Under the pieces are notes generated by a model. The model was not told the origin of the DNA. It was given only the letters and a program-made list of their open reading frames with translations, and ran no database searches. A stretch of 64,000 nt of DNA, from positions 62,001 through 126,000 of the forward strand of contig NZ_WUUS01000003.1 in NCBI RefSeq assembly GCF_009831625.1, in the 5' to 3' direction. Positions 17,585-64,000 of the stretch are shown here, in pieces. The DNA is from Halobaculum saliterrae (GTDB lineage: Archaea > Halobacteriota > Halobacteria > Halobacteriales > Haloferacaceae). Each line of letters begins with the position of its first letter. Position 1 is the stretch's first letter. Both the position numbers and the translations under genes were made by a program.

Positions 17585-18253
17585 TCAGACTTGGTCGACC
17601 TGTGTACGTTTCCAGTAGCGCCGTACTCGCAACCCCACGAACACGACGATCGCAACGACGATCAGCTCTATGCTGGGGTGCGTCCCCATGTCCCGATAGA
17701 TGCGGAACAGCCGGATCCAGGGGGCGATCTCGTCGCCAGGCGAGGTCGACAACGGGAACAACGGGTTCAGCAGGAACCGCGCTCCCCACAGGTCGACGGC
17801 GAGGAGGTACCGATAGGTGTCGCCGAGGAGGTGACTCAGATAGCCGACAGCGAACGCCGCGGGCGTGACGACCCGAAGGCGTTCGGGGAGCGTTCCGTCG
17901 CTCCAGCGGCCGCGCAGGCGCCGAGCGAGCCACCAGACGGCGATAGAGCAGATCGCGAAGGTGAACAGCGAGTGCGCCAGCGACCGGCCGGAGATGAGGA
18001 TGTCGAGGTACGCGAGCGGCTTGTCGACGAGGTCGGGAAACTGGCTGCCGATCGCAAGCGGGACGAGCGCGGCGCGAGCGGGCAGCCGGTGCGTCCCCAC
18101 GGCCGCGTAGCCCGCATACCAAAGGTACGCGATCGCGAGGTGTCCCAGCGGTAACACAACGACGGGGAGGTGTGGGGTGGAAATAAGGGTGGCTGATCGA
18201 AAGAGGATGGCCACAACTACGCTGAACTCGTTGACCGGTTCAGCGTGATTCAC
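17585..18253 (-). CDS. YdjM/DUF457-type membrane metal-dependent hydrolase
   Basis: About 222 residues. The start is uncertain; the conserved part begins at [12 protein letters not shown]. Conserved His/Asp sites of the family are visible: [23 protein letters not shown] and SHLLGDTYR. There are several hydrophobic segments, the last being [15 protein letters not shown]. These are predicted membrane-bound metal-dependent hydrolases of unknown substrate. It stands between TA pair 1 and the broken TnpB and appears intact. Confidence 0.75.
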
Positions 18254-18390
18254 ATCTCGAGCGTCACTGTCGTTCCCACAGACTTTCGATGCGCTCTTCG
18301 ATCCGATCGAGAACGAGACGGCTCACGTCACGATGGTCGTCCAGCCACTGATGTTCTCCGCGTCGGTACGGTTCGCGACCGGTGGTGGAT

Positions 18391-18838
18391 GGAAGTGATC
18401 GCGTTCGAGAACTTCACTCATATTCGCGACCGGACGGGTGCGTCGTGGGGTCACAAGTGGGCGTTCCGAACGCTAGACGAGCAAGTGGAGTACAAAGCCG
18501 AGGCAGAAGGTATCTCGGTGAAGCAAGTCAGGCCGGCGTACACATCGAAGCGGTGCGCCGAGTGTGGGTTCACGACAGACGAGAATCGTCAGACTCGCAA
18601 CTGTTTCCGGTGTGTGAAGTGTGGTTCGGAAGCGAACGCGGACTACAACGCAGCGAAGAACATCGGGATGCGGTACGTCCGCCGGGGCCAACAGTCGTCT
18701 CGGCGGACGGGCGACAGTCAGCTCGCCCTAAAGTCTGGATCTGTGACGCCGAGTGACGGATCCACCGCCCACCCGGAAGGGTTCGGGGCCGAGTTCATGG
18801 ACAACCCCCACCCTCCACGAGCGAACCCGTCAGGGTGA
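18391..18838 (+). pseudogene. tnpB: Truncated TnpB (C-terminal part)
   Basis: The readable part begins at RuvC-II ([15 protein letters not shown]) and continues through the zinc knuckles CAECGF and CVKCGS and the RuvC-III segment [15 protein letters not shown] to a normal C-terminus and TGA. The N-terminal half with RuvC-I is missing; the 150 bp upstream is unrelated sequence. It is a different TnpB lineage from the copy at 15 kb. The right-end hairpin downstream is retained, so the locus could still give an omega RNA. Confidence 0.8.
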
Positions 18839-42262: not shown

Positions 42263-42459
42263 AGATGATTTGGTCCTTACAATTGTGTTGAAGGTTTCTA
42301 ATCGACCGCTCCGCTCTAACCTCCGTTGCCCTCTCTTGGTAGAGGGTTATAAGAAAAGTTCCTTCCTTGTTGGCTATATGCCATTCACAAGATACGAAAG
42401 ACGGTCGATGGCGTCCACGACATGGAGGGGTATCATCCACCAGACTCGTTGGCAACGAC

Positions 42460-43050
42460 GCCGATAATCGGAGCTATATCGGTCTTGATGAACTCTGTAT
42501 AATTGAAGAACTGAATTGGCCGAAGTACGTGATGCTCTTAATCTCAATCGGGACAATATCTCCGATCACACAACGATCTACAAATTATTTGATCGACTAA
42601 AAAGTAGGTTTGGCACGCTGCTACGCGCAATGCACAGCAGCACCCGCAGTCTGGCCACGCCGTCTCAACAGCACGTTCTTTGACCGACGGCATGCATCCT
42701 CGTACTTCCGACAGTGGGGGGACGAACGGTACAGACGCTGAAAGTAACGATATTTACTAATATGGGGTTGCTTGCCATTCTTGACCTCCAGTTCACAGAC
42801 CGGTGGAAGCATGACACGAAGACCGCACCGCAGGTCGTCCAGCGAAACGCGGACGGCCTGCATTCCGTTGCTGCCAACAACGGTTTTCAAAACTGGCATA
42901 TCGAGTACGAAATTGCCGCACATAACGTTGAGTAGCTTGTTCACTCCCGCGACTCATCAGCGAAAGCAGCCGCAAACAACGCGCTCAACGGATCAAACGG
43001 TTACTCTCAAAGGGCACAGGTACGATGTCGTGACAGCCGACCCGAGAGTC
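42460..43050 (+). pseudogene. Decayed IS5-family transposase
   Basis: Plus-strand fragments in shifting frames: DHTTIYKLFDRLK, then LNSTFFDRRHASSYFRQ, then TVQTLKVTIFTN, AILDLQFTDRWKHDTKTAPQ, RNADGLHSVAANNGFQNWH, and after a TAG SSAKAAANNALNGSNGYSQR. In order they match the haloarchaeal IS5-type transposase with its DDE core. The last part, which should read WMAET and onward, is lost. Frameshifts and stops make it inactive. The 200 bp before 42460 contain nothing recognisable. Confidence 0.7.
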
Positions 43051-43080
43051 GGATAACTGTCGAGGAGGGCCGATAGTTCT

Positions 43081-43220
43081 GTGGGTACTGGTGTGATCAA
43101 TCAGGGAGTTTCAAATGGCCTTGGGGTCGTGGTTGAGGGTACGTCCTTTTCGGAGTTGAATATCAAAACAAGTCTGAGCAACGTGACAAACATGAGAGTG
43201 GGTGTTATCCACTGGGTTTG
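43081..43220 (+). pseudogene. C-terminal fragment homologous to the IS-split secreted protein
   Basis: Reads GTGVINQGVSNGLGVVVEGT, SFSELNIKTSLSNVTNMRVG, nearly the same as the C-terminus of the split gene ending at 46280 (GVNDRGVANSLGVVVETTSF and on). It lies directly behind the IS5 remnant and converges with the GT-C-like gene. It must be the tail of a second, otherwise lost copy. Confidence 0.65.
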
Positions 43221-43239: not shown

Positions 43240-44808
43240 TCACGGGCTGCACGTCTTCGTGACAACGACGGGGCCAGATGAGTAGATAGCACAGTCTGAT
43301 GAATCCGGTGGTGTTGTTCGCGTCACGCTGTAGTCTGCGCTAGGTGGCGCATATCCGCCCCCTCGATCCTGAACTAATATCGAATAACCTCTCAGCTTCG
43401 GCACGATAGGGTTTCCAAAATCCATGTGTGATGCCTCTGTCCCGAGGAATTCCACAGCGGCGGCATCCGTTTCCGTAATCACTGCGCGTGGCCCCCCATT
43501 GTACTCACCCGTATAAAGATAGGGAGGGATTCGATAGACACTCAACATAGCGAAGGCAATAACCAGTATGATCGCCAGTATCGATATCGCCCTCTGTGGA
43601 TGTTTCTGCATCGTGTGTATTGTATAGGCGGCGAGTGGAAGAGCCGCAATATAAACAAACGTCTTAAATCGCGTCGCGAGCCCGAGTCCTTCCTCTGGAA
43701 AAACAACACCGACCATCGTAAGCGCAAGGAGAATGCCGAATAACCCGGCGATTCCGAGGAACGTGAGATCAAAGGAGTCTCCCCTTCCATAGTAAATACC
43801 GCCGAGACCCAGCATCCCGAGAACGATCCCGGCAATAACCTCGGCCCATAGCAGAATCTGGATACGTAGTGAGCCGGCAGATATTGTTCCAATTTCTCCG
43901 GATGGTCCCGTTCCGGTGGTGCCGGTCATCGATTCTGCGATGGCCGCGACTAGTAGGATAGGTGTCTGTTCAAGTATGGTCCAGAACCAGATCAGAATCA
44001 TAACGCCGACAAGCGCCGATATTAAATATACATTCGCTGGGGTTGATTCGGAAAGTGATTCAATACTATAGGTGAGTGAGAGGCTGATGAGGAAAAGAAG
44101 GGCTACTGCACTAGTCATATGGTGCGTAAAGATCAGGGTGGCAAGCACGACAAAACTGAGCATATTGAGCTTCTGTCGGTCGGCGTTGTCGTACCTGAGA
44201 GTATCATATAGGAACAGTAGTAGAAGAATATATGCCAGAGCCAGAGCTTCTCGGTGAATGTTTGTGTGTAGGAACACGTGCGTATATAAGACTGCGAAGG
44301 GTAGCCAGAGAAGAAACGCAGTCGAGTTACTTGTTCGGTTGCGACAGAGAATATAAATAAACAGTCCTGGGAGGAAGACGTAGAGCCAGCTGCTATACTT
44401 GGCTGTCGTCATCGATCCCCATCCGAATACTTCTGCGATGACCGTTGAGAAGACGTAGAGAATTGGATAGGAGGCTATGTAACTCGCTGACTTGTTGAAG
44501 GTCCACTTGTGGTCAGCCATCGTGTTTTCAAGAGCGAGGAGTTCGTTGTATGCGTCGTAGCCGATAAGTATCGGATCCGGGGTCAGGTAAAGAGATCGTA
44601 GTGTTGCGGCGAACAGTAGTAGAAGGGCTGCAGGAATCAAAACCCGCTTTTTAAAGACAACGTTAGCCCATGCAAGAAGGAAGAGAACTGAAAGCCCCAA
44701 GAATGCCCAATATGGTGGACTAGTGATTAATCGCGATGAGATGGCGAGAACAGAAATCGCGGCGAACGCGAGAATTACTCCGAGTTTATCTCGCTGAGAG
44801 TACGCCAT
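43240..44808 (-). CDS. Polytopic GT-C-like membrane glycosyltransferase
   Basis: 522 residues with about 11-13 hydrophobic segments. After the second segments an extracytoplasmic loop has PDPILIGYDAYNELLALE, an acidic stretch like the first-loop catalytic Asp of GT-C enzymes, and later loops have HTNIHREALALAYIL and FTHHMTSA. The C-terminal 80 residues are soluble (AAVEFLGTEAS and on), as in haloarchaeal DUF2206-like and GT39-like proteins. It would use a lipid-linked sugar on the outer face. No defined family match is claimed. Confidence 0.7.
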   Translation of the reverse strand: MAYSQRDKLGVILAFAAISVLAISSRLITSPPYWAFLGLSVLFLLAWANVVFKKRVLIPAALLLLFAATLRSLYLTPDPILIGYDAYNELLALENTMADHKWTFNKSASYIASYPILYVFSTVIAEVFGWGSMTTAKYSSWLYVFLPGLFIYILCRNRTSNSTAFLLWLPFAVLYTHVFLHTNIHREALALAYILLLLFLYDTLRYDNADRQKLNMLSFVVLATLIFTHHMTSAVALLFLISLSLTYSIESLSESTPANVYLISALVGVMILIWFWTILEQTPILLVAAIAESMTGTTGTGPSGEIGTISAGSLRIQILLWAEVIAGIVLGMLGLGGIYYGRGDSFDLTFLGIAGLFGILLALTMVGVVFPEEGLGLATRFKTFVYIAALPLAAYTIHTMQKHPQRAISILAIILVIAFAMLSVYRIPPYLYTGEYNGGPRAVITETDAAAVEFLGTEASHMDFGNPIVPKLRGYSILVQDRGGGYAPPSADYSVTRTTPPDSSDCAIYSSGPVVVTKTCSP

Positions 44809-45233
44809 TCAAATCATTCATAGCCGTAAGACTATTTTTAGGTTGTGACGTCGGTTCGCTATGCTTCGAATATTTCAAATTGCATCACCTGCAGCAATAG
44901 CGGTATTTCTCGCGCTGGGGGGCTTACTGCGAAACCCATGTGGGAGTCGGGCTACTTTCGTGAGTAAAGAGACGGTCGCCGCTGGCGGCGCGACGGCAAC
45001 CAACGCAGCCAACAGAGGGGCCGAAGCAACCAATGGTGCCCGACTCATGATTGGAAGTGCGTATATTAGTGTCCACAACTCGCTGAAAGTCAATGGCCCC
45101 ACAATTGTCGATGCTGCGAGTGCAACCATTGACGACTCAGCTGGAGGCTTCGCTGTTAATACGACCGACGGAGCGTTGGGAGATCTCGCTCGCGTGTCTG
45201 TGACTGGTAACTCAGGGGGCGCGAAGTTTGAAC

Positions 45234-45244
45234 AAGGCGTCCGT
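45234..45244 (+). repeat. Left direct repeat flanking the IS6 element
   Basis: AAGGCGTCCGT, repeated exactly at 45933-45943. Eight bases (AAGGCGTC) fit an IS6-family target duplication; the extra CGT may be chance identity with the IS end. Removing one copy with the element restores the host frame. Confidence 0.7.
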
Positions 45245-45932
45245 CGTGTTAAGTTTAGCATTGATTCCACCAGACGGCGAAGGGTTGGAGCCACGATTCT
45301 GCCGTCGGTGGCTCCACGTTGCTGAACGTATGTGGAAACGAAGAGGTTCGACATTTTACCTCACGAAAGACACGTTCGATGCTGTTCCGATTTCCGTGGC
45401 GACGTATCTGAAATCGGAGCCCGAGCCGCCCTAACGCAGCGTTGAGATCGTGCGCTCCATCAATGAGAAACGTCGCTTGCTCGACCTGCTGTTTCTCTCG
45501 GAGTTTACGTAGGAACAGCACGGTAAGTTGCGTCGTTCTCGTCTGAAACAGCCGTACATGGAGGAATTCGTTCGTGCCGGGATCGACAGCAGCGTACAGC
45601 CAGTGTCGTTCGTCATTGATCTGAATCACTGTCTCGTCTACCGCGATCTGATTCGGAGCCCCGTCGTTGGTCGGCTGTAGATCGGCCTTCTGAACCCAGT
45701 TGTGAATCGCGGTGCGACTCCGCTCGACACCCAATCTCTCAAGATACTGTTTGGTATTCGAAAGTGAGAGACCCGCAAGATGGAGCTGAATACCGACTTC
45801 AACGATCTGCTCGGGTGTCCGCTCTCGCTCCACAAACTCCAAGTCGATCCAGTCGATACCTCTGATGAGGCGGTCGAATTCGGCCATAGACATCCGATCT
45901 AACGGCCGCCTCACTCCTAACTTAACACGGCC
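45242..45932 (-). mobile_element. IS6-family insertion sequence, copy A
   Basis: About 690 bp, bounded by imperfect terminal inverted repeats CGTCGTGTTAAG (left) and CTTAACACGGCC (right; reverse complement GGCCGTGTTAAG, 10 of 12 matching), with a single transposase gene. It sits inside the secreted-protein gene at 44861-46280. The host duplication is still perfect, so the insertion is recent relative to the other IS remnants. Confidence 0.8.
45255..45893 (-). CDS. IS6-family DDE transposase, intact
   Basis: About 212 residues from ATG 45893 (MSMAEFDRL); 45887 is also possible. An N-terminal helix-turn-helix with HLAGLSLSNTKQYLERLGVE and AIHNWVQKA is followed by the DDE core. First Asp: QIAVDETVIQIND. 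Second Asp: FLIDGAHDLNAAL. Glu: NSIERVFREVKCRTSSF. It ends WWNQC. The length and all catalytic residues are normal, so it is potentially active and could mobilise the related copy B in trans. Confidence 0.88.
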   Translation of the reverse strand: MSMAEFDRLIRGIDWIDLEFVERERTPEQIVEVGIQLHLAGLSLSNTKQYLERLGVERSRTAIHNWVQKADLQPTNDGAPNQIAVDETVIQINDERHWLYAAVDPGTNEFLHVRLFQTRTTQLTVLFLRKLREKQQVEQATFLIDGAHDLNAALGRLGLRFQIRRHGNRNSIERVFREVKCRTSSFPHTFSNVEPPTAESWLQPFAVWWNQC

Positions 45933-45943
45933 AAGGCGTCCGT
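45933..45943 (+). repeat. Right direct repeat flanking the IS6 element
   Basis: AAGGCGTCCGT, the exact copy of 45234-45244 on the far side of the element. Confidence 0.7.
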
Positions 45944-46283
45944 GCAAACCTTCAAGAAGCATCGTGCTTCAACAACGAAGACGACATCATTATCCCAGAC
46001 GGAGCAATTGTCAACCCAACAATCTGTGTGACAGGAGGATCGACAGACTGGACCCCCAACCCCAATGGCATCAACGTCACTCTCAATTCACTGTCGTAGA
46101 ACGGTATCGTGTTTGGGTGATAATAATGGCGACTCGATTGTTTCTGTGGATACCGGTGTGAACGACCGAGGAGTTGCAAATAGCCTTGGAGTCGTGGTTG
46201 AAACTACGTCCTTCTCTGATGTGAACACGAAAACAAGCCTGAGCAACGTGACAAATAAAAGAGTCGCGATCATTAACTAACCT

Positions 46284-47669
46284 ATGAGTCAGCCAAATAT
46301 CGTATTGCTCGTTTTGGATAGTGCTCGCGGCGACCGTGTTCCGACGCACGGCGAGCACGTGATCACTCCGAATATTCGCGACCTCGGAAGGCGTGGCCTC
46401 CAATTCACCGATGCCCACGCCCACTCTGTGACGTCGTCGAGTTCGATGGGGTCGCTCCTGACCGGTCTCCACCCGTGGGAGCACGGTATCGCTCCAGCCG
46501 AAGGAAAGCTCGGTGACGACGAGCGGACGATTGCCTCCCGATTATCCGATGTAGGCTACGAGACAATTGGTGTTTCCGCTAACACGCACTTCGCGCCTGC
46601 GACGAATCTCGCAAACGGATTCGACGAGTTCTGCTTTCTAAGTTCGTCACCCAAACAACTCCTGAAGACCGCAGGCGCGAAAAACGTCCTTCGACATCTC
46701 GTTCGGGCTCGAACACACTCAGCAGGCCTCTCACGTGAGACAGAGAAGCACTCGGTAACCGGAATGATCAACGATATCGCTCTTCAGACGACCCGTCAGG
46801 CCGAGGCTCCATTTTTCCTTGCAGTTCAGTATATTGAGCCTCATTCGCCGTACTATCCTCCCCACGGGTTTATGAATCAGTTTGAGGATCGTCTCGCAGA
46901 GTGGGACCTCACCTCGACAGAGGGGGCAGATATAGCGTATCGAATTCACGACGAGATGCACCAACTCATGGCCGACGGACTCCCGCTGTCAAACCGCGAG
47001 TGGGCAGCCCTTCGGATCATGTACGATACCGAACTCTACTACACAGATCTCATGGTCGGTCGACTCATCGACCAACTCCGGAAACGGTACGAGGACACGA
47101 TCTTCATCGTAACGGCTGACCATGGGGATCTCTTTGGCGAGCGCAATACAGTATTTCACTCGAAAACGTTGCATCGAGGCCTGACTCACGTCCCGCTCGT
47201 AGCGGAGGGGTGGAACTTGGATACTAATACCGACGCCCCAGTGACTCACTCCGACATTACACGGACTCTGTTGGAGGACGTCGGTGCTGATACAGAGGGG
47301 ATGACTGGCGTGAACCTTCGGGAAAGCGAGCGAGACTACGTCATCACGCAGCGCGTGAACCCAATTCTGTTCGAAGAGGATGAGTACGGACCTGGGCACT
47401 CGAACGAGCTGGTTCACACGGAACCCGTTACAGCCGTTGAGAAAGACGGATATCGGCTCCTGCGGAGCGACGAAAAGGAGTCGCTATTCACTATCGAGGA
47501 CGAGGAAACGGATCTGATAGACGACCCAGCCACTGCCGATGTCCGGGACGATCTTCGTTCCCGCCTCAAAGAGTGGTTTGAGACCCATCCCGAGGACCCC
47601 GCTGAAGCCGAGCAGGCGGACTGGAGTGCGTCGGCCAAACAGCAGCTGGAGGATCTGGGTTATATATAG
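46284..47669 (+). CDS. Sulfatase-superfamily hydrolase or transferase
   Basis: 461 residues. Superfamily sites: PNIVLLVLDSARGDRVP with the N-terminal metal Asp, TPNIRDLGRRGLQF, SSSMGSLLTGLHPWEHG where the sulfatase nucleophile motif should be, and FIVTADHGDLFGERN. The motif position reads SSSSMG instead of C/S-x-P-S-R, so a Ser is present at the nucleophile position but Pro and Arg are missing. It may act as a phospho- or sulfo-hydrolase on glycans. It begins 4 bp after the broken secreted-protein gene and is bracketed by IS6 copies A and B. Confidence 0.85.
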   Translation: MSQPNIVLLVLDSARGDRVPTHGEHVITPNIRDLGRRGLQFTDAHAHSVTSSSSMGSLLTGLHPWEHGIAPAEGKLGDDERTIASRLSDVGYETIGVSANTHFAPATNLANGFDEFCFLSSSPKQLLKTAGAKNVLRHLVRARTHSAGLSRETEKHSVTGMINDIALQTTRQAEAPFFLAVQYIEPHSPYYPPHGFMNQFEDRLAEWDLTSTEGADIAYRIHDEMHQLMADGLPLSNREWAALRIMYDTELYYTDLMVGRLIDQLRKRYEDTIFIVTADHGDLFGERNTVFHSKTLHRGLTHVPLVAEGWNLDTNTDAPVTHSDITRTLLEDVGADTEGMTGVNLRESERDYVITQRVNPILFEEDEYGPGHSNELVHTEPVTAVEKDGYRLLRSDEKESLFTIEDEETDLIDDPATADVRDDLRSRLKEWFETHPEDPAEAEQADWSASAKQQLEDLGYI

Positions 47670-47692: not shown

Positions 47693-48384
47693 CGTCGTGT
47701 TAAATTTTGCATTGATTCCACCAGACGGCGAAGGCTTGGAGCCATGATTCTGCCGTCGGTGGCTCCACGTTGCTGAACGTATTTAAAAACGAAGAGGTTC
47801 GGCGTTTTACCTCGCGAAAGACACGTTCGACGCTGTTCCGATTTCCGTGGCGAGTTATCTGAAATCGGAGCCCCAGTCGCTCCAACGCAGCGTTGAGATC
47901 GTGCGCCCCATCGACGAGGAACGTCGCTTGCTCGACCTGCTGTTTCTCGCGGAGTTTACGTAGAAACATCACGGTGAGTTGTGTAGTTCTCGTCTGAAAC
48001 AGCCTGGCATGGAGAAAATCGTTTGTGTTGGGATCGACAACGGCGTACAGCTAGTGTCGTTCGTCGTTGATCCGAATCACTGTCTCGTCTACCGCGATCT
48101 GATTCGGAGCCCCGTCGTTGGTCGGCTGTAGATCGGCCTTCTGAACCCAGTTGTGAATCGCGGTGCGACTCCGCTCGACACCCAATCTCTCAAGATACTG
48201 TTCGGTATTCGAAAGTGAGAGACCCGCAAGATGGAGCTGAATACCAAGTTCAATGATCTGCTCGGGTGTCCGCGCCCGCTCCACAAACTCCAAATCGATC
48301 CACTTGCTATCTCCGCTAAGACGGTCGAATTCGATCATAGAGTACCTGAACTAACGACCGTCTCAGTCCTAACTTAACACGGCT
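47693..48384 (-). mobile_element. IS6-family insertion sequence, copy B (defective)
   Basis: About 690 bp, very similar to copy A throughout and in the same orientation, ending with CGTCGTGTTAAA (left) and CTTAACACGGC (right). I see no clear 8-bp target duplication. The transposase gene is broken by one nonsense codon, so it depends on copy A or another source to move. Confidence 0.8.
47700..48338 (-). pseudogene. IS6-family transposase with a nonsense mutation
   Basis: The frame from ATG 48338 (MIEFDRLSGDSKW) reads the usual N-terminal domain and the first catalytic Asp (QIAVDETVIRINDERH). It then meets TAG at 48051-48053, where copy A has Trp (TGG). After the stop the same frame continues LYAVVDPNTNDFLHARLF through the second Asp and the Glu to WWNQCKI. 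A single G-to-A change accounts for the defect. Confidence 0.85.
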
Positions 48385-54490: not shown

Positions 54491-55678
54491 TCACCGCCAC
54501 GGGAGGTATCGAGCGAGCCCCGCAGACTCTCGGTCGGCGAGTTGTCGTTCGAGATCCGCTCGCTGAGCACGCTCGGCCGCCAGTTCCTCGCGTAAGCGCT
54601 CGTTCTCCCGCTCCAACTCGTTGAGTTCCTCTCGAAGCGTCGTCAAGGCGTCTCCCTCCGAATTTCCCACCGACCGGCCACCGTCATCACCCGACATCGA
54701 CGGTGTTCGGCTATTCACGCTGTCGCCGTCTCCGAGCGGGTCCCAGTCATCGTCGCCGCCCCCATCGTAGAATTCGTCGGTCCCCGCGATCGCCCGCTCG
54801 ATCGTCCGTCCGCCGTACGTCGCGCCGTCGCTGAAGTGGACCTCGTCCCACTTCTCGCGATACAACCCCGACTCGCGGAACAACCGATCCATCTGGTCTG
54901 CGTCGCCCCCGGTCCAGAATGCCAGCAGCGAACACAGCGCCATGTCCGCTTCTGAGTGACTCGGGTAGCCCACTGTGGAGCCACGCCAGAGGCGCCGGAA
55001 CTTCTCCCCATTGGCTGCGTTCCTCGCGCAATCAATGAGGTCTCCATCCGAGAGCCTGTTCTCCGGCCCTTGCTTCGCCGATCGGGAGGTCGACTGGGAG
55101 GCGGCGTTGGATCCCGACGTGCTCGCAGCGCTCGTCTCCGGTGCCACGTACTCGGAGTGGACGGCGGCGAGGGCTTCAGGACGCTGGGGAATGTGATCGG
55201 GCGTTCCATCGACATGATGGCCGGCGACGGTGAAGAACCGCGCCGAGTCGTATAGTTCCACGTCGCCGCGTCGGTTCCGCCCTGCGGGCAGGTCGCCGGC
55301 GACGATCACGTGGAGGCCGATCCCGGAGGGACTTACTTCGGTGAACGAGTCGAGCCGCTCGACGATGTCGTCGGCAGACTCGAAGCGGGCACCCGTGTCC
55401 GGATCGCGGCAATCATCGAGATCAACACCGACGAGCGGGTCGTCGTCGGTGAACACCAAGCCGAGCCCTGTGTCGCCAGCATCGACGGCGTGAGTGCGTG
55501 CCGCCGAGAACGACCGCAACGTGTCCGGATCCGTCGCCGATGCGTACCCGCCGCCCGGCTCAACTGGGACTTTCGTCGCTTTGCCGTCCCGCTGTTCGCT
55601 GCGCCAACACACCCACTGATCGCGGTCGATCATCGACTCCGGCAGGGGGTCGGCAGTCGGAACCGGCGGGTCAGTCAT
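54491..55678 (-). CDS. PrimPol-type (archaeo-eukaryotic primase-like) protein
   Basis: 395 residues. The N-terminal part has the primase-polymerase signs: an acidic VGVDLDDC at 83-90 (metal Asp residues), SPSGIGLHVIV at 116-126 with the nucleotide-binding His, and ARFFTVAGHHVDG. A second helical domain (GEKFRRLWRGSTVGYPSHSE, AFWTGGDADQMDRLFRESGL) is the one found in phage NrS-1-like polymerase proteins. The C-terminus (about 345-385) is a coiled coil. Such proteins prime or copy plasmid and phage DNA. It overlaps the VirB4 gene by 8 bases, tying replication to conjugation. Confidence 0.8.
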   Translation of the reverse strand: MTDPPVPTADPLPESMIDRDQWVCWRSEQRDGKATKVPVEPGGGYASATDPDTLRSFSAARTHAVDAGDTGLGLVFTDDDPLVGVDLDDCRDPDTGARFESADDIVERLDSFTEVSPSGIGLHVIVAGDLPAGRNRRGDVELYDSARFFTVAGHHVDGTPDHIPQRPEALAAVHSEYVAPETSAASTSGSNAASQSTSRSAKQGPENRLSDGDLIDCARNAANGEKFRRLWRGSTVGYPSHSEADMALCSLLAFWTGGDADQMDRLFRESGLYREKWDEVHFSDGATYGGRTIERAIAGTDEFYDGGGDDDWDPLGDGDSVNSRTPSMSGDDGGRSVGNSEGDALTTLREELNELERENERLREELAAERAQRADLERQLADRESAGLARYLPWR

Positions 55679-57743
55679 CGCCGGCTACCTCTCCGCGATC
55701 GCCGGCCAGCGGCTCGTCCGCCTGCTGCGGGTCGTGGGTGATCACCTCGTGTTCCCGTGGCAACGCGCGCACCTCCATGCCGCGCCACTCGCCGTCGACA
55801 CCCAGCAACGCCTGCGAGTACCCGGCCTCCTCGTTGCCGGGTGTCGCCGTCTGCACGAACCGCATCTGTGGATGGTTCAACCCGAACTCGTCGGCCCACT
55901 CGGCGTCCATCCCGTCGAGCTTGTGGAACTGCTTGATCGCACACTGGTCGAGGATCATCTCCGCCGTGTCGTGCTCGAAGAACTCGTCGACGGTCTGGGT
56001 CACCAGCCGGATCGACAGGTCGTGGTGGCGGTGGTGCCGGAAGATCGTCTCCAGATACGACAGTGTCGCCGCGTCCTTCATCAGATACCGTGCCTCGTCG
56101 ATGACAAAGACGACCTCCTGGTCCGTCTCCTTGGCTCGTTCGTACACGAGCGTGATGAGCAGCTCCATCAGCAAGCTCGTGTGTCCGCCCACCTGCCCAC
56201 CCTGCTCGGCCAGATCGAGATACACCAGCGACTCGTCGCGGATGTCGAACTCGCTGTGGCGGCCGAGCTGTTCGAACTGGCCACCCTCGGCGAACGGCCG
56301 CAGTTGGTCGAGTAGCCACACCGCGTCGTCGGCGATCTTCTCGGCCTCGTCGTCGGTTCGGATCACGTACTCGCCGGGTGACTCGGCCATCTCCGCGAGG
56401 ATATCGAGCATGTCGCGGACGGTCGGACTCTCTCGGTCGTGGGTGGAGACGTCCTCGGTAATGTCCTTTCGCTCGTACGCCGCCGTGAGCGCCGTCTCCA
56501 GCGTCGTGCGGCGGTCGCCCAACTCGACGCCCCGTGTGGCGAACACGTTGGTGAAGAACGCCAGCGCCCGTTCCTGGCGCTCTTTCAGCGGGCTGGCGTC
56601 GTCGCCCCGCGCTGCCAGCACGTGCTCGGGCGTCGGCTTGATCTCGAGGGGGTTGAGACCGAGCGTGCCGCCGACGGTGATCCGCCGGCCGCCGAGTGCC
56701 TCACAGACGCCGGCCCAGTTAGTGAGCGGTTCGAGGACGATCCCGATCCGGTCGACGGACTGCGACAGACTCCGGATGAGGTTCTGTTTCGCGCTGTAGG
56801 ACTTCCCCGATCCGGGATCACCGACCGTGAACATCGCGTAGCCGTCCTCGCGGGCGAAGGGGTCGACCACGAGCGGACTCCGCGTGTCCTTGTGCACGCC
56901 GAACTCGACGCCCCCCTCCTCGAGGATCGTCGGGGAGTGTGGCGACGCGAGGAGCGCGCCGACGGCGCCGCCGAGGGCGATGGAGCCGCGATCGAGCGGG
57001 TCGCCGCCGATGGGTGCGGCCGCCTGCAGCGCCCGGTCCTGAAGACACACCGCCGTCGCCGGCTCCAGGCGTGCCGGCGGGTCACGCACCGCGGTACGAA
57101 CCGCGGCGACGGCGTCCGTGAGTTCATCGCGAGTGTCCGCCCGGACCGTAATGAACAGCGCCTGAGAGAACACCCGCTGGCCGTTCTCGACGGCCTTGTA
57201 CGTGGCCGTCGCCGCCGCCGCACGGTCCTGCAGGTACGACTCCCGAACGCTGCGCTCCAGATCCGCGTCGGCTTGCAGGTCGTCGGCGGCCGCCTGAAGG
57301 CGGTCCCGGGCCCGCTCTTGGGGAAGCGGGTCCACGTGGACCGTCAGATCGAACTCGATGTCGGTCAGCTCGAACAGGCCGCTGAGGTAGCCGTCGGTTG
57401 GATGGTCGGGGTACGCCGCGACGGTGAGCGTGGTCGTCCACTGGTTGCCGACCCGTGCCGCACGCGGCTCCCACGCGACGGCCTCGGGCGCGAGCGCCGT
57501 TCGATGTCGGTCCGCCAGCGTGTCGAACGCGACCGCCTCCTCGCGACCCGCATCGACAGTCTCCTCGGCGAGGAGATCGCCGAACGTCGGTTCGTCGTCC
57601 CGGCCGGCCAGCCACTGTCGGAACCGAGCGAGGACGACGAGAACGGCGACGCCTCCGACGCCGTAGACGAACAGCCCCGCGGGAGAAAGTGGCCGTGGAA
57701 GGGTCCGCAGCGCCGCCACGAAGTCGGCGATCGCAGACTGCAT
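55671..57743 (-). CDS. VirB4-family conjugation ATPase
   Basis: 690 residues. N-terminal hydrophobic segment FVYGVGGVAVLVVLARF, then the VirB4 N-terminal domain. The ATPase has Walker A GDPGSGKS at 308-315 and Walker B VVFVIDEA at 544-551, with LVTQTVDEFFEHD and FHKLDGMDAEWADEFGL as in VirB4/TraC. It powers assembly or substrate transfer of the archaeal type IV secretion-like machine at the membrane. It overlaps the PrimPol start and shares its first base with the stop of the upstream gene, so the cluster is one operon. Confidence 0.92.
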   Translation of the reverse strand: MQSAIADFVAALRTLPRPLSPAGLFVYGVGGVAVLVVLARFRQWLAGRDDEPTFGDLLAEETVDAGREEAVAFDTLADRHRTALAPEAVAWEPRAARVGNQWTTTLTVAAYPDHPTDGYLSGLFELTDIEFDLTVHVDPLPQERARDRLQAAADDLQADADLERSVRESYLQDRAAAATATYKAVENGQRVFSQALFITVRADTRDELTDAVAAVRTAVRDPPARLEPATAVCLQDRALQAAAPIGGDPLDRGSIALGGAVGALLASPHSPTILEEGGVEFGVHKDTRSPLVVDPFAREDGYAMFTVGDPGSGKSYSAKQNLIRSLSQSVDRIGIVLEPLTNWAGVCEALGGRRITVGGTLGLNPLEIKPTPEHVLAARGDDASPLKERQERALAFFTNVFATRGVELGDRRTTLETALTAAYERKDITEDVSTHDRESPTVRDMLDILAEMAESPGEYVIRTDDEAEKIADDAVWLLDQLRPFAEGGQFEQLGRHSEFDIRDESLVYLDLAEQGGQVGGHTSLLMELLITLVYERAKETDQEVVFVIDEARYLMKDAATLSYLETIFRHHRHHDLSIRLVTQTVDEFFEHDTAEMILDQCAIKQFHKLDGMDAEWADEFGLNHPQMRFVQTATPGNEEAGYSQALLGVDGEWRGMEVRALPREHEVITHDPQQADEPLAGDRGEVAGDD

Positions 57744-58831
57744 CAGTCGTCCTCCCGCCGGCGGGCGCGGCCCGGCGCCGGGGCCGTCGCGAGCAACCGC
57801 TCGGCGTCGTCGTACTCGCGCCCGTTCCAGAACTCCGCCGCGAGGACGAACAATTCCAGCGTCGAGAGCCGGCGATGCTCCCAGTCGGCCATCGGCTCGA
57901 CGAGGTCCTGCTCCAGCGTGTGCAGGCGGTCACAGAGGCGGTCGTACATCGCCTGCCGACGGGAGGCCGGTTCATTCCCCGTCGGCCGCGAGAGGAAGGC
58001 GGCGACGACCACGCCCGCGATCGGAATGGCGGTGAGCCGGTCGCGGACGGAGGATTCGCCGGGGCGGCGACTCGCGACGTCGGACGGAGTGACGGTGACG
58101 CCGAGGTAGTAGCGGTGCCGGGTCGTGTCCGCCAACTCCGCCGGTCGCCGGTCGCGGTACTCCCGCAGGAGCGCGGCGAAGGCGTCATTGCTCGTCACAT
58201 CGGGATCCGCCTGCCGGTCGGCGAGGCGGTCGACGAGACGGTCCGCCGGGAACGCGCGGGTCGTCGTATGGACCGTCAGCGGGAACTCGAGGTCGTTGTT
58301 CGCGAACCGCGCGGCAGTCGTCTGGAGGCGTTCCCAGTCGCCCGACATCGCGAAGTCCATGTTGCCCGGTGTGACCGCGATGAACGCTTCGAGGGCGCCG
58401 TCCTCCCGTTCGATGACGCCCGTCCCGGGCCACGCTCGCGCGACGGTCGTGAGGTCCTGCGTCCGCTCGTCGGGGATGAACGGCGTGTACGGGACCGATT
58501 CACCGTCCGTACCGGAGTGGTCGGCCCCGGCCGGCTGCGAGAGCGTGTACCGCGGGCGGCACAGGAGATACCGACCCACGTCCCGAAGCCACGCCGAGGC
58601 GGTCAGATGACGCGGGGCGGCGTACACCGCCGCGACACCGACCACGAGGCCGACCAGCGCGAGCGGGACGACCAGCGGGTCGAACAGCACGCTTCCAGTC
58701 AACAATCCCGCGACGGGAAAGCCGACGAGAACGCCGAAATCGCCCTCACGAAGGTTCACCAGCGGGATCCGGTGTGCTTCCCCCAGTTGGGTCATGATAC
58801 GACGGTCGGCTGCGGTGGAGTCGGAACTCAT
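57743..58831 (-). CDS. VirB3/VirB4-N-terminal-like conjugation membrane protein
   Basis: 362 residues. Two hydrophobic segments lie near residues 32-70 (FGVLVGFPVAGLLTGSVLF and VVPLALVGLVVGVAAVYA), a VirB3/PrgI-like layout. A soluble domain then has ALEAFIAVTPGNMDFAMSGDWERLQTTAARF and LEFPLTVHTTTRAF, which resembles the N-terminal part of VirB4-type ATPases without the ATPase. It shares its last base with the VirB4 start. It probably bridges the membrane channel and VirB4. Homology here is by pattern and context. Confidence 0.65.
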   Translation of the reverse strand: MSSDSTAADRRIMTQLGEAHRIPLVNLREGDFGVLVGFPVAGLLTGSVLFDPLVVPLALVGLVVGVAAVYAAPRHLTASAWLRDVGRYLLCRPRYTLSQPAGADHSGTDGESVPYTPFIPDERTQDLTTVARAWPGTGVIEREDGALEAFIAVTPGNMDFAMSGDWERLQTTAARFANNDLEFPLTVHTTTRAFPADRLVDRLADRQADPDVTSNDAFAALLREYRDRRPAELADTTRHRYYLGVTVTPSDVASRRPGESSVRDRLTAIPIAGVVVAAFLSRPTGNEPASRRQAMYDRLCDRLHTLEQDLVEPMADWEHRRLSTLELFVLAAEFWNGREYDDAERLLATAPAPGRARRREDD

Positions 58832-58834
58832 CGA

Positions 58835-59959
58835 TCACTCGTGTCCCGGATCGTTTTCTCGACGACGGTAGGCCGGGATCCCACCGTCGCCGGACCGGTC
58901 GGTCGTGACGTTGTCCTGGGTTGTCGTCGATGCACCGTGCTGTGATGATCCGCCGTCCATGACGCGCTGCACGGCCGCGTACATCATGCCGGCACGCGGC
59001 CCGTAGCGGGCGGTCGTCGCCGCGGCCCCGCCCCCGACGGCCGCACCCATCCCGGCGACCGCCCCGAGCGTCGCGGCGGTCCGACTGGTCCGTGCGAGCG
59101 CACCCGTGACGAGCGGCGCGGCGTATCGGAACGTCTTCCACGTGACGTACAGCCCCACCACGGGCAACGAGATCGCGACGACATAGCCGAACAGCGGCCG
59201 GGTCGGAGAGACGACGGGCTCGCCGCCGAACAACAGTCCGTAGCCACGGAACAGGACGGCGGCCGGGATCGGCAGAACCACAAGCGGGATGAACTGTCGG
59301 CAGAAGCGGGCGGCGATCCTCGAGACGACCGGGAGGTTCCCAAACGCGAACGCGAGACCGATCGGCATCCCGTACAGGTAGACGTACAGGAGAACCTCCC
59401 GGAGGAAGAAGATCGATTTCAGAGTGGACAAGGAGATAGCGGCGACGGTGGTGAGTACGAGCGTCATCACCGGATTGAGTGCAGCATCAGGTAGAAGTTT
59501 CGCTACTGCAGTACCGACTTGGCTGATGTCTGGAATCAACCCGATTGTGAGCGCCTGTACCATGTAGAGAGCCAAAACGGCGATCCAATACCAAGAAACG
59601 ATCAAGATACCCCCTGTCCATGCGCTTCTCCGAGTTCGGCGATCCGTTTTGGGAGAGCCGAGATTGAATATTCGTGCGAAGTGGCGACCCTGAATCGAGA
59701 GGAATAGTATGACAAGAGACACGATCAGAACTTCTCCAGTAACGACGGTTTGGTAAATACTGTACCAAGGGGCTTCTCCAGTATCGGGTGAACAAAGAAC
59801 AACGTTCAGACCGGTCCCATCAGGAAGTGGAGTTGCGAACAGGTCTGTCGTTATTGTTTGATAACCGCGCAACAGTTGTTCTCGAAACCATGCGATGATT
59901 TGGCCAAGAATATCTTTGAACCACTCAACTCCATAATCAGAAAGGGGGAGATTCGCCAT
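58835..59959 (-). CDS. VirB6/TrbL-like polytopic membrane protein
   Basis: 374 residues from ATG 59959 (a TTG at 59965 is an alternative). About seven hydrophobic segments: VLIVSLVILFLSI, GGILIVSWYWIAVLALYMVQALTIGLI, LNPVMTLVLTTVAAISLSTL, VLLYVYLYGMPIGLAFAFG, LVVLPIPAAVLFRGYGLLFG, LFGYVVAISLPVVGLYVTW and a Gly/Ala-rich run (TLGAVAGMGAAVGGGAAATT). A polar tail follows. This is the VirB6/TrbL layout of the conjugation pore. Spacing to its neighbours is 2-3 bp. Confidence 0.75.
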   Translation of the reverse strand: MANLPLSDYGVEWFKDILGQIIAWFREQLLRGYQTITTDLFATPLPDGTGLNVVLCSPDTGEAPWYSIYQTVVTGEVLIVSLVILFLSIQGRHFARIFNLGSPKTDRRTRRSAWTGGILIVSWYWIAVLALYMVQALTIGLIPDISQVGTAVAKLLPDAALNPVMTLVLTTVAAISLSTLKSIFFLREVLLYVYLYGMPIGLAFAFGNLPVVSRIAARFCRQFIPLVVLPIPAAVLFRGYGLLFGGEPVVSPTRPLFGYVVAISLPVVGLYVTWKTFRYAAPLVTGALARTSRTAATLGAVAGMGAAVGGGAAATTARYGPRAGMMYAAVQRVMDGGSSQHGASTTTQDNVTTDRSGDGGIPAYRRRENDPGHE

Positions 59960-59961
59960 GC

Positions 59962-60798
59962 TCAATTCACCTCCCCCTCAACGGTGATCTCGCAGTCGTC
60001 GTCAGATGTCGGACGATACGACAGTTCGTATCTCGTTTCGAAAATGACGCTACGTGCAGTATCTTCGATTTTAACCGTTGCCACGCTATCACCGGGCATC
60101 GAAGAACAGGTTTCTTGCTCACCTGCGAACGAGAAGGGTAGAGTACTCGAGAATAGACGGGCAGTAGCGTTTGGCTCAATCAGTACCTGTTCAACTTCAC
60201 CGGCACCCGTTCCGGTATCGAAGATCCCGCTCGTTTCTGCTGATTCAAGAACCTCTTCGGTTTCATTTGGGATGTCGCCGAGGAAGGCGAGGTTCTGGAC
60301 AGCTGTAGGGCCTGATCCGATGTTCCGAACAAGTACTGTAGCCGCAAACGGTTCGAAGTTACCTAAGGAATCGGGCATCACGTCAGGATTGTTCGCGCCG
60401 ACGCCCAGTTCCTCGATGACGAGATCCGGCTCCAGCGTGATCGACGCGCCTGAACCTCCCTCGGTCGTCACCTCGTAGGTCCCGGGCACGTACCGGACAC
60501 CCAGTTCGACGGTAAGCCGTGTTTCCCCCGTGACAACCGACAGCGACCGCACGCGGGAGCCGTCCGGCGCGATCACGTTCACCTGCTCCACCTCGCTGTC
60601 CTCCCGGAGTTCGATTACGAGTTCCGTGCCGCGCATCGCGAGTTGCTCGAACGGGTCGTCAGGATCCGTCGCCTCGCCGGCCGAATTCGCTCCCGTCTCC
60701 GAGGACGAGTCAGTTTCATGTTGACTACACCCCGCGAGGGCGACGAGCGTACTCCCGGCGACGGCGAGCAGGCGTCGTCACGGCACTCGGTCAGTCAT
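59962..60798 (-). pseudogene. Conjugation-cluster lipoprotein with a nonsense codon at codon 7
   Basis: The expected start ATG 60796-60798 overlaps the upstream stop by 4 bases. It reads MTDRVP, then TGA at 60778-60780, then RRLLAVAGSTLVALAGC, a Tat-type lipoprotein signal with lipobox, and an open frame to 59962. The rest (IELREDSEVEQVNVIAPDGS, FAATVLVRNIGSGPTAVQNL) is an Ig-like secreted beta domain. CGA to TGA (Arg to stop) fits. Without readthrough only a fragment from ATG 60636 could be made, which would lack the signal. Confidence 0.7.
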
Positions 60799-62567
60799 GG
60801 ACCCACCTCCCCGAACCGGAACAGCCGTCCGAGTCGCCGCCCCGCATACACTGCGAGCGCGAACGGGAGCGCCCACTGGAGCGTCCGTCCGAAGAGCCGT
60901 AGCCACCCTGCCGGCGTCGCCAGCGGATGCCAGCGAGCGGTCGCACTCGTACCGACGTACGCCGGGTGGTGTGCCACCCACGAGCCGGGCACATACTCCA
61001 CCGTGTACACACCGGGCTCGGAGACGGTCACCGTGGCGACGCCAGAGACGTTCGTCCGCACCCGCTCGCCCGCCACGGCGACGTAGCCCTCACGGGTGGC
61101 GGTCGACGGGATCTCGAACGGTGCCTCGGACCGGCGGAGGGCGATCGGCTCGCCGGTGGGGGCGTCGGTCAACGCGATGCGCAGCGTCGCTCCGGTATCA
61201 TCCTGGTCGACGACCTCCACGGTCAAATCGCTGCGGCGGAGCTGTCGCGTCGGGCCGGTTTCGTCGATCGGCACGTCGACGCCGCGAACGATCCCGACCG
61301 CCTCGACAGCCTCGTCATGGGCCAGCACGGTGCGGACGGCCAAGCCGTACGACGCCGTGTACTCGCGTTCGACCACGTCGACGGAGACGGTATCGGGAAG
61401 CGACGCCGCCGGCGACCGGCGATCGCGCCCCCAGACAGCGGTGATCCGAGGAGTGCGGCCGGTCGGCTCGCTCCGAGGGCCGAGCCGGGACGGATACGCG
61501 TGGACCGCGACCGGCAGGGCCGGGGATTCGATCTCCCGAGTGCCGGTCCGATTCGACCGTTCGAGCGTGTCCCACCGGACGTCGCGGGCGGTGTAGAAGC
61601 GCCAGACGCCGCGTACCTGCCGGTCACCCTCGGTGCCGAACCGGAGGCCGAGCCACGGCGCTGAGTGGAACGCTGCGAGGAGGCGGTCCCCCTCGGGCCT
61701 TCGGCCGCGGACGAGAGCGACCTCAGGGGTGTACGGTTCGATCGCCCGTCGGTCGCGAACCGTTACCGTCTCCGAAACGGTGCGCGTCTCGGGCGTCGTC
61801 GCTATCGTCGGATCCTCGGCAGTCTCGTTCGAGGGGTGTCGTCCGTTCCTGTCCGTCCGCGGCTGGTCGACCCGAAACTCCGCACGGATCGTCGCGACGA
61901 GGACAAGGGAGTCGACATCGTCAATGAGCGTGTAGTTGATCGCCGGCAGCGCGGTCCCATCCGTCCGCGCGAGCGTGGTTCCGTCGCCCGTCTCCAGGCG
62001 AACCGACTCGATCCGACTGCTGGCCAGCGTGTAATCGACCGTCGTGTTATTCGCCGACTCCGCGCTGGGAACGACAATCCGATAATCCACTAGTCCCCGC
62101 ACCGTCCCGTTCGGGGCGACGTACTCGGTCGTCTCGCCCGGAGTCCGGTGGGCAGTCGTGGACGGGGTGATCGCGAACAGCGTCGCATGGGCGTCCCGAA
62201 TGTACCGGCCATCGGTGAGGGTCGCGTGGGGTGGGTACACTGATACGTTCACGTCGCCCGGCGTGGCGTCGCGATGGTCAGCCCGTGTCCAGCGAGCCGC
62301 GGTATCGGGCGGGCGGCGGAACGTAATGTCGCTGGCGTTGGCGAGTTGTTCGCCGGCAGAGCGCGAGTCGTTGGAGCGCCGCTCGAAGGCGGCGTTCGTG
62401 ACGTAGCCGGAGTCGTTGTCTCGGCTCCACAGCGACGCCGCCTCCGCCTCCGTCAGCCCGTGTGTCTCCTCCTGGGGAGACGGTGGGCGCCCGGCGGCGA
62501 CGGCGACGAGGCTCCCGACGAGCATGACGATGAGGGCCGCAACCGACAGCGAGGTTCGTCGTCGCAT
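60795..62567 (-). CDS. Large secreted surface protein of the conjugation cluster
   Basis: 590 residues. N-terminal signal (SLSVAALIVMLVGSLVAVAAG) and a C-terminal hydrophobic anchor (TLQWALPFALAVYAG) followed by a basic tail (GRRLGRLFRF) suggest an outward-facing membrane protein. In between there are many N-x-S/T sites and Ig-like segments (TREGYVAVAGERVRTNVSGV, PGVYTVEYVPGSW). No enzyme motif is seen. It lies between the lipoprotein and the two-TM protein in the operon and probably mediates cell contact or channel assembly. The family is not recognised by name. Confidence 0.7.
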   Translation of the reverse strand: MRRRTSLSVAALIVMLVGSLVAVAAGRPPSPQEETHGLTEAEAASLWSRDNDSGYVTNAAFERRSNDSRSAGEQLANASDITFRRPPDTAARWTRADHRDATPGDVNVSVYPPHATLTDGRYIRDAHATLFAITPSTTAHRTPGETTEYVAPNGTVRGLVDYRIVVPSAESANNTTVDYTLASSRIESVRLETGDGTTLARTDGTALPAINYTLIDDVDSLVLVATIRAEFRVDQPRTDRNGRHPSNETAEDPTIATTPETRTVSETVTVRDRRAIEPYTPEVALVRGRRPEGDRLLAAFHSAPWLGLRFGTEGDRQVRGVWRFYTARDVRWDTLERSNRTGTREIESPALPVAVHAYPSRLGPRSEPTGRTPRITAVWGRDRRSPAASLPDTVSVDVVEREYTASYGLAVRTVLAHDEAVEAVGIVRGVDVPIDETGPTRQLRRSDLTVEVVDQDDTGATLRIALTDAPTGEPIALRRSEAPFEIPSTATREGYVAVAGERVRTNVSGVATVTVSEPGVYTVEYVPGSWVAHHPAYVGTSATARWHPLATPAGWLRLFGRTLQWALPFALAVYAGRRLGRLFRFGEVGP

Positions 62568-62570
62568 CGG

Positions 62571-63029
62571 TCAGAAGGGGATGAGATCGACGCACTCGGC
62601 GATCGGGAGCTCCATCGCGGTGCCGGCGACGGTGAACAGCGGCCCGAGCACGACCAGCGTAAGCGCCGACCGGCCGGCGCCGCGCTTGTGCTGTTTGATC
62701 TTCGCTTTCTGCTCGCGACCGAGGGTGAACATCTCCATGAGAGCGTCCGCCTGCCAGACCACGAGCAGCCCCATGATCCCCAGCCCGGTGGTGATCTGCA
62801 CGAATCCCTCGATCATGTTGGCGAGCGTGTCCGATTCGTTCGTACACACGGGGTTCGTCGTGTCGTCCTGTGCGGCGACCGTCCCAGTGGCTGCCGCCAC
62901 GAGGAGCACGAGACAGAGGCTCACTCGACACACCGCGCCGAAGGCTGGTGTCACGATCCGTCGATCCGGGCTTCCGCCGTCGGTCACGACCCGACCATCC
63001 CCGTTGGGCCCGTTATTGGCGGCACTCAT
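62571..63029 (-). CDS. Small two-TM secreted protein, VirB2/pilin-like position
   Basis: 152 residues from ATG 63029; a start at 63065 is also possible. Signal-like VSLCLVLLVAAATGTVAAQD, then a mature part with two hydrophobic helices (MIEGFVQITTGLGIMGLLVV and SALTLVVLGPLFTVAGTAM), separated by a basic loop (LGREQKAKIKQHKRG). Small double-helix proteins with a signal are typical of VirB2-like pilin subunits. It is the first gene of the leftward operon, divergent from the regulator. The pilin role is an inference from shape and position. Confidence 0.55.
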   Translation of the reverse strand: MSAANNGPNGDGRVVTDGGSPDRRIVTPAFGAVCRVSLCLVLLVAAATGTVAAQDDTTNPVCTNESDTLANMIEGFVQITTGLGIMGLLVVWQADALMEMFTLGREQKAKIKQHKRGAGRSALTLVVLGPLFTVAGTAMELPIAECVDLIPF

Positions 63030-63183
63030 CCCGCCGAACGGACCCCATTCACGTCGACGTGGCATTGCCCGTATTCGTCCAGCGACGAGGAAGTACTCAC
63101 GGCGTCCCACACTGTGGAGATCTGTGAACGTTCTCTTCCGAAGATATTTATCCGATCCGACGGTGAAAACAATCGATCAGCCT
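63030..63183. promoter_or_regulatory. Divergent promoter region of the conjugation operon and regulator
   Basis: 154 bp between divergent starts. AAGATATTTA at 63141-63150 is a TATA candidate for the rightward regulator, 34 bases before its ATG. No equally clear box is seen for the leftward operon. The regulator may control both sides. Confidence 0.4.
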
Positions 63184-64000
63184 ATGAACGAACCCTGGGG
63201 GGTCGTTCGAGAGCTGTCCGTCTCCCAAACGGACCCGGATCGAGTCGACGTACTGTCGGTCCTCGAGTCAATGGGTGGTGGCGCAACCCCGACTGAATTG
63301 GCGGAGGGATGTGACGTGAGCCGGAAGGCGATCTACCGACGGATCAGGGAGTTCCGAGAGATCGGGTTCGCGATCGATGGCTCCGACGGCGAAGTTCGAA
63401 TGACTCGCTCCGCGGTGAAAGCGATCGGAGCATACCGGTGTGTCGCGGCACAGACGGACCCGGCGGCGATCGCGTATCTCACGAACTCAGAGTCCAGACG
63501 GGACCTCCTGCGCACCCTTGTGGCCACGTCGGCCGACAAGGCGGAATTAGCCGCCGATGAGCAGCTCCCCTCGCGCTCCACCGTGCATCGGACACTCGAT
63601 CGGCTGGACGATCTTGAGTGGGTTGACCGAACGACCGACGGCCGGTTCACCGCAACCTCCCGAGCCGTCGTGGACTTGGAGCGGATCGACTGGCTCGTGG
63701 AGGCGATCCGGCAGGCGATCGCGAAGGCGCCGGCACTCCGACGAATGAGCTACTGGGTCGATCCGCCGTTGCACGCGCTTGCCGGTGGCGATCTCGTCGT
63801 CGAAACGCCCACAGACCCCAACGCGCTGTTGAGCGCCGCGGTCGATGCGGCCGACCTCCGGACAGAGGGCCTCAGCCACGTCCGGTCGATCACCCCGGTG
63901 TTCGATCCTGTCATGCTCGACCTGTTCGGGAACTATATCGACCGAGACACCACCCAACAGATCGTCTTCGACAGGCGAACGTACCGCCAACTCACACGGC
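63184..64000 (+). CDS. Winged-helix transcriptional regulator, cut by the window end
   Basis: At least 272 residues. Two wHTH blocks are visible: TPTELAEGCDVSRKAIYRRI near residues 37-56 and LAADEQLPSRSTVHRTLDRL near 122-141, each followed by a wing. The C-terminal part (FDPVMLDLFGNYIDRDTTQQ, IVFDRRTYRQL) resembles the FilR1-type effector domain of archaeal regulators. It continues past the right edge. The position suggests control of the divergent conjugation operon. Confidence 0.8.
   Translation, partial: MNEPWGVVRELSVSQTDPDRVDVLSVLESMGGGATPTELAEGCDVSRKAIYRRIREFREIGFAIDGSDGEVRMTRSAVKAIGAYRCVAAQTDPAAIAYLTNSESRRDLLRTLVATSADKAELAADEQLPSRSTVHRTLDRLDDLEWVDRTTDGRFTATSRAVVDLERIDWLVEAIRQAIAKAPALRRMSYWVDPPLHALAGGDLVVETPTDPNALLSAAVDAADLRTEGLSHVRSITPVFDPVMLDLFGNYIDRDTTQQIVFDRRTYRQLTR

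Follow-up and report, generated by a model that had tools for sequence, protein, structure and literature searches.

Probable insertion of an ISH14-like IS6-type element into an orphan gene of Halobaculum saliterrae

Insertion sequences of the IS6 family are reported to generate 8-bp target repeats (PMC7986276; Table 5 of PMC6807381), and archaeal members are described as carrying a signature, E--F---K-R together with W---F, near the end of the catalytic domain (PMC6807381). Elements of the ISH14 and ISH29 type are tabulated in the same source with lengths of 696–697 bp and a transposase length of 211. IS6 elements are also known to form pseudo-compound transposons, units with two direct copies flanking a passenger (PMC7986276), and in the cell-wall island GI1 of Haloquadratum walsbyi, described as a variable region of cell-surface and cell-wall genes, transposases accompany the loss of synteny (PMC4535781). 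Here, we report an analysis of one window (the whole stretch of DNA studied, 64,000 nt) from Halobaculum saliterrae, part of a 3.78-Mb draft genome in 21 contigs. We find, with an estimated probability of roughly 0.88, that an ISH14-like IS6-type element inserted after codon 127 of an orphan gene, in the opposite orientation to it, giving an 8-bp target duplication (AAGGCGTC; Table 1). The event is an ordinary IS6 insertion into an orphan gene, ordinary for haloarchaeal genomes, and a further example of what is already on record for haloarchaea means little in itself. What is gained is that the true ends of the element and its 8-bp target are fixed, and that an orphan gene family is recorded in a glycan-type island eroded by mobile elements.

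Table 1 Features of the locus, in order of position in the window
Feature	Position	Strand	Basis
Decayed, truncated insertion-sequence remnant, DDE_Tnp_1 transposase type	42517..43009	+	About 80%, up to about 81%, identity to multi-copy haloarchaeal elements
Paralogue fragment, 45 codons similar to the gene's tail	43078..43212	+	69% amino-acid identity; 80% nucleotide identity over 123 bases
Probable interrupted orphan gene, first part, 127 codons, hydrophobic N terminus	44861..45241	+	Open frame, coding score
Target site duplication, copy 1, AAGGCGTC	45234..45241	+	Boundaries from terminal inverted repeats
IS6-type insertion sequence, 691 bp (copy 1)	45242..45932	transposase on -	Terminal inverted repeats and boundaries common to relatives
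Terminal inverted repeat, left in the window	45242..45255	+	Matches the other end at 12 of 14 bases
IS6 transposase gene, 212 codons, open, apparently intact	45255..45893	-	NCBIfam, Pfam, alignment with five relatives
Terminal inverted repeat, right in the window	45919..45932	-	Terminal-repeat comparison
Target site duplication, copy 2, AAGGCGTC	45933..45940	+	Boundaries from terminal inverted repeats
Probable interrupted gene, second part in the joined frame, 52 codons up to a TAG	45941..46099	+	Joined frame, coding score
Putative end of the gene, shifted by one base, 49 codons and stop	46131..46280	+	Coding score; paralogous to 43078–43212
Sulfatase-family gene, directly downstream	46284..47669	+	Pfam PF00884, 122.5 bits
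Second, decayed IS6-type copy, one in-frame stop, no target repeat (copy 2)	47693..48384	-	91% identity to 45242–45932

The predicted transposase scores 182.5 bits against the NCBIfam model NF033587 (transpos_IS6; cut-off 125) and 38.7 bits against Pfam PF13610 (DDE_Tnp_IS240; cut-off 27), and it contains both archaeal signatures, E--F---K-R as ERVFREVKCR and W---F as WLQPF. Asp86, Asp145 and Glu173 (D86, D145 and E173) are invariant in all six aligned sequences and are probably the catalytic DDE residues. These matches place the element in the archaeal branch of the IS6 family, and the first-pass annotation, which had called it IS6 from the letters, is upheld by the NCBIfam score. In common with the ISH14/ISH29 type as described, the element has a similar length (691 bp) and transposase length (212), one end starting with GG, an 8-bp duplication and the E--F---K-R and W---F signatures; it differs in its other end, which begins with CG rather than GG, although mixed ends are listed for ISH15 and others (PMC6807381). 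Judged by size, transposase length and ends, against published descriptions, the element is ISH14-like.

The boundaries of the element were set from the terminal inverted repeats, which leaves 8 bp (AAGGCGTC), identical on both sides, outside it. Exact identity between the two sides extends over at most 12 bp (CAAGGCGTCCGT, 45233–45244 and 45932–45943); of these bases, the element itself supplies the CGT at the end of the left copy (its first three bases) and the C at the start of the right copy (its last base). An insertion with target duplication had been proposed from first inspection and is confirmed at these boundaries. The 11-bp flanking repeat given with that proposal exists as a repeat, but as a target duplication it shortens to 8 bp: with the boundaries drawn from the terminal repeats and the 8-bp rule, three of its 11 bases are the start of the element, matched by chance in the target. 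The element would have arrived by the IS6 replicative route, through a cointegrate followed by recombination.

IS6 relatives of the element are spread across the haloarchaea, and 80 loci kept from haloarchaeal genome contigs, together with the two copies in the window, made up the 82 elements of an end survey. Ends were not found in 21 and were weak in 10, leaving 51 scored elements; two of these with an impossible end pairing (L017 and L074) were left out. An exact 8-bp repeat is present in 17 of the 49 usable elements, copy 1 included, and in six more, by our own reading, an 8-bp repeat is shifted by one base. A genome of the same genus (G005) has an element of 692 bp, versus 691 bp here, with the same boundaries and 90% DNA identity over its full length. 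The element is represented there by four full-length copies among the matches listed, and target repeats at those boundaries measure 8, 9 and 9 bp in the three copies that were read; in one of these same-genus copies (L121) the target likewise matches the element's start by chance. At one copy in another genome no target repeat was found at the element boundaries. The best plasmid match is an IS6 transposase on the Halorarius halobius plasmid NZ_CP101162.1 (83.5% DNA identity over 90% of the query, and 84% amino-acid identity to the transposase of copy 1), whose element differs in location and has its own flanks.

When the element and one 8-bp copy are removed, the flanks join in one frame (...KFEQGVRANLQEASC...), as claimed at first pass. 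The joined frame runs from 44861 over 179 codons to a TAG at 46097–46099, and the roughly 30 nt that follow hold further stops in this frame; the tail (46131–46280) is out of register by one base, and its own stop (46278–46280) lies 3 nt before the start of the sulfatase gene. The TAG and the one-base shift, which the same annotation had listed as extra damage, are thus both present. As the DNA now stands, the truncated frame from 44861 terminates within the element after 154 codons. Codon scores were trained on 18 genes of the window, with the three pieces of the gene absent from the training set. The 127-codon part scores 0.222 bits per codon (101 of 5000 wrong-frame segments of equal length score as high), the 52-codon part 0.250 (89 of 5000) and the 49-codon tail 0.149 (206 of 5000), which is good but not overwhelming support for coding. 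That the codons before and after the element both score as coding supports an interrupted gene, and of the six frames the joined one scores best on either side. Insertion and joined frame are both real, and so, as sequence, is the decay of the gene.

Three other accounts of the flanks have to be weighed. Conceivably, the frame that opens at 44861 and what follows the element do not belong to one gene and join by chance: no homologue spanning the junction was found among 170 genomes of the family and 391 of the class, and over the 160 bases that follow the element none of the three forward frames has more than one stop, so that openness alone is weak evidence. Against this, flanks that share an exact 8-bp duplication must have been contiguous until the element inserted, and on either side it is the joined frame that leads the coding scores; we regard a chance joining as very improbable. 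The gene could instead have ended at the TAG and been intact when it was hit, the out-of-frame tail being a separate relic like the fragment at 43078–43212. The joined frame up to the TAG does score as coding on its own, and the paralogue of the tail comprises the tail only, with unrelated sequence before it. The tail, however, scores as coding on the same strand, begins about 30 nt past the TAG and reaches almost to the next gene, and a short interval with stops and a one-base shift has the look of a single decaying gene, which makes an end at the TAG possible but unlikely. That the TAG and the shift are sequencing or assembly errors, leaving the insertion as the sole real damage, would fit a draft genome and two lesions so close to each other, but decay is expected once a gene is broken, and we hold such errors to be improbable. 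Under the preferred reading of a single interrupted gene, the insertion would have ended the gene's function, and the stop and the one-base shift may have been gained since the insertion or may already have been there before it.

A further reading concerns copy 2, which lies just downstream of the sulfatase gene in the same orientation as copy 1. The two are the only copies found in the genome, and as direct repeats they flank 1.76 kb that includes the sulfatase gene, an arrangement in which they could bound a pseudo-compound transposon by which the tail of the gene and the sulfatase gene came in as a unit. Near-identical copies that moved together are not what is seen: copy 2 differs by 9%, has a stop in its transposase and lacks a matching flank, with no target repeat found in the end survey at its terminal-repeat boundaries, whereas copy 1 has a complete target duplication of its own and so inserted as a single element. 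Moreover, the gene resumes beyond copy 1, and what lies between the copies is therefore not foreign to the left flank. The target duplication of copy 1 goes most of the way to refuting the pseudo-compound reading, which was rejected on that duplication and on the divergence and decay of copy 2; we consider it the remotest of the readings weighed here.

On the preferred reading, in which one gene was split by a single IS6-type element, the product of that gene was most likely a small exported protein. Its N terminus is hydrophobic (a stretch at about residues 4–23, with a mean of 2.05 over residues 9–23), as in exported proteins. The first-pass annotation had described the product as a secreted, strand-rich surface protein. 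Secretion has this stretch in its favour and gained no further support, and the remainder of the description proved to be a guess: a model of the first 127 residues from the single sequence has a mean pLDDT of 46, too low to be of use for comparing folds, with one helix and two short strands, and searches with the protein found no match to a family of Pfam, NCBIfam or PHROGs (to E 5) or to a PDB chain (to E 1). The search for intact homologues that the annotation had proposed found none in genomes of the genus, family and class, plasmids or phages. The first 128 codons have no convincing relative in 11 genomes of the genus, 170 of the family, plasmids or viral contigs; the tail has none outside its own genome among the 170 family genomes; and the read-through protein has none in 391 class genomes, plasmids or phages. 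Weak matches (E 0.001–0.01 per genome) were seen for the first 128 codons in 5 other genomes of 170, where chance gives about 2, and for the read-through protein in 8 other genomes of 391, where chance gives about 4. Seven such loci were inspected as candidate homologues and rejected, their surroundings being ordinary unrelated genes or the matches being of low complexity. Nor was an empty site found in the other genomes searched (170 of the family, 391 of the class). The neighbouring 522-codon membrane-protein gene (43240–44808) yields no relatives beyond its own genome, whether at E 1e-20 (170 family genomes) or at E 1e-15 (391 class genomes), so an empty site is not to be found through the neighbours. 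In place of a homologue, the one-gene reading therefore has the anatomy of the insertion and the coding scores to draw on.

The sole relative found for any part of the interrupted gene is the fragment at 43078–43212, which matches the tail alone; the similarity stops with the tail and does not reach the surroundings of the insertion. Differences between the pair by codon position number 7, 7 and 17, and this excess at third positions is as would be expected of former coding sequence. Next to the fragment, the stretch 42263–43077 is matched in 47 of 167 family genomes, mostly at 42517–43009 and often in several copies, and at this remnant the reading frame of a relative matches the DDE_Tnp_1 domain. 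With the IS6-type element at the gene and the DDE remnant at the fragment, both members of the family adjoin mobile-element debris. One could imagine that the gene belongs to a family of exported proteins, fast-evolving and almost private to its lineage, within a glycan island, and that both members were broken beside mobile elements (one by the IS6-type element, the other beside the DDE remnant, with only its tail left) because their loss was selected, for example in escape from a virus using the protein or its glycan; we consider this very doubtful. If losses of this gene recurred in sister strains, they would allow a test of whether selection at the locus acts against a surface protein.

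The locus lies in a stretch of low GC content (about 0.43–0.55 across roughly 26–52 kb of the window, versus 0.60–0.67 outside), which holds genes of glycosyltransferase, polysaccharide-export and sulfatase type around the element. Further genes of sugar-nucleotide type were recognized by eye in 26000–52000. Such a setting is consistent with a variable cell-surface region of the kind represented by the cell-wall island of Haloquadratum walsbyi (PMC4535781), a different organism, to which the likeness here is one of gene content and low GC alone. Within this glycan-type variable region, the interrupted gene may have shared a transcription unit with the sulfatase gene, given the 3 nt between them. 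Relatives of the sulfatase (36–39% identity, E 1e-80) occur in 4 other genomes of the 170 of the family, and in all four, none of the upstream frames of at least 60 codons resembles the interrupted gene by eye. Elsewhere in the window, frames at 15037–16341 and 18245–18838 resemble, by eye, IS200/IS605-type accessory proteins (TnpB-like, with CxxC motifs), the second being fragment-like. A GC-rich block at 54491–63296 contains what resemble, again by eye, genes for a VirB4-type ATPase, primase-like genes and membrane genes, and is perhaps an integrated conjugative or plasmid-like element.
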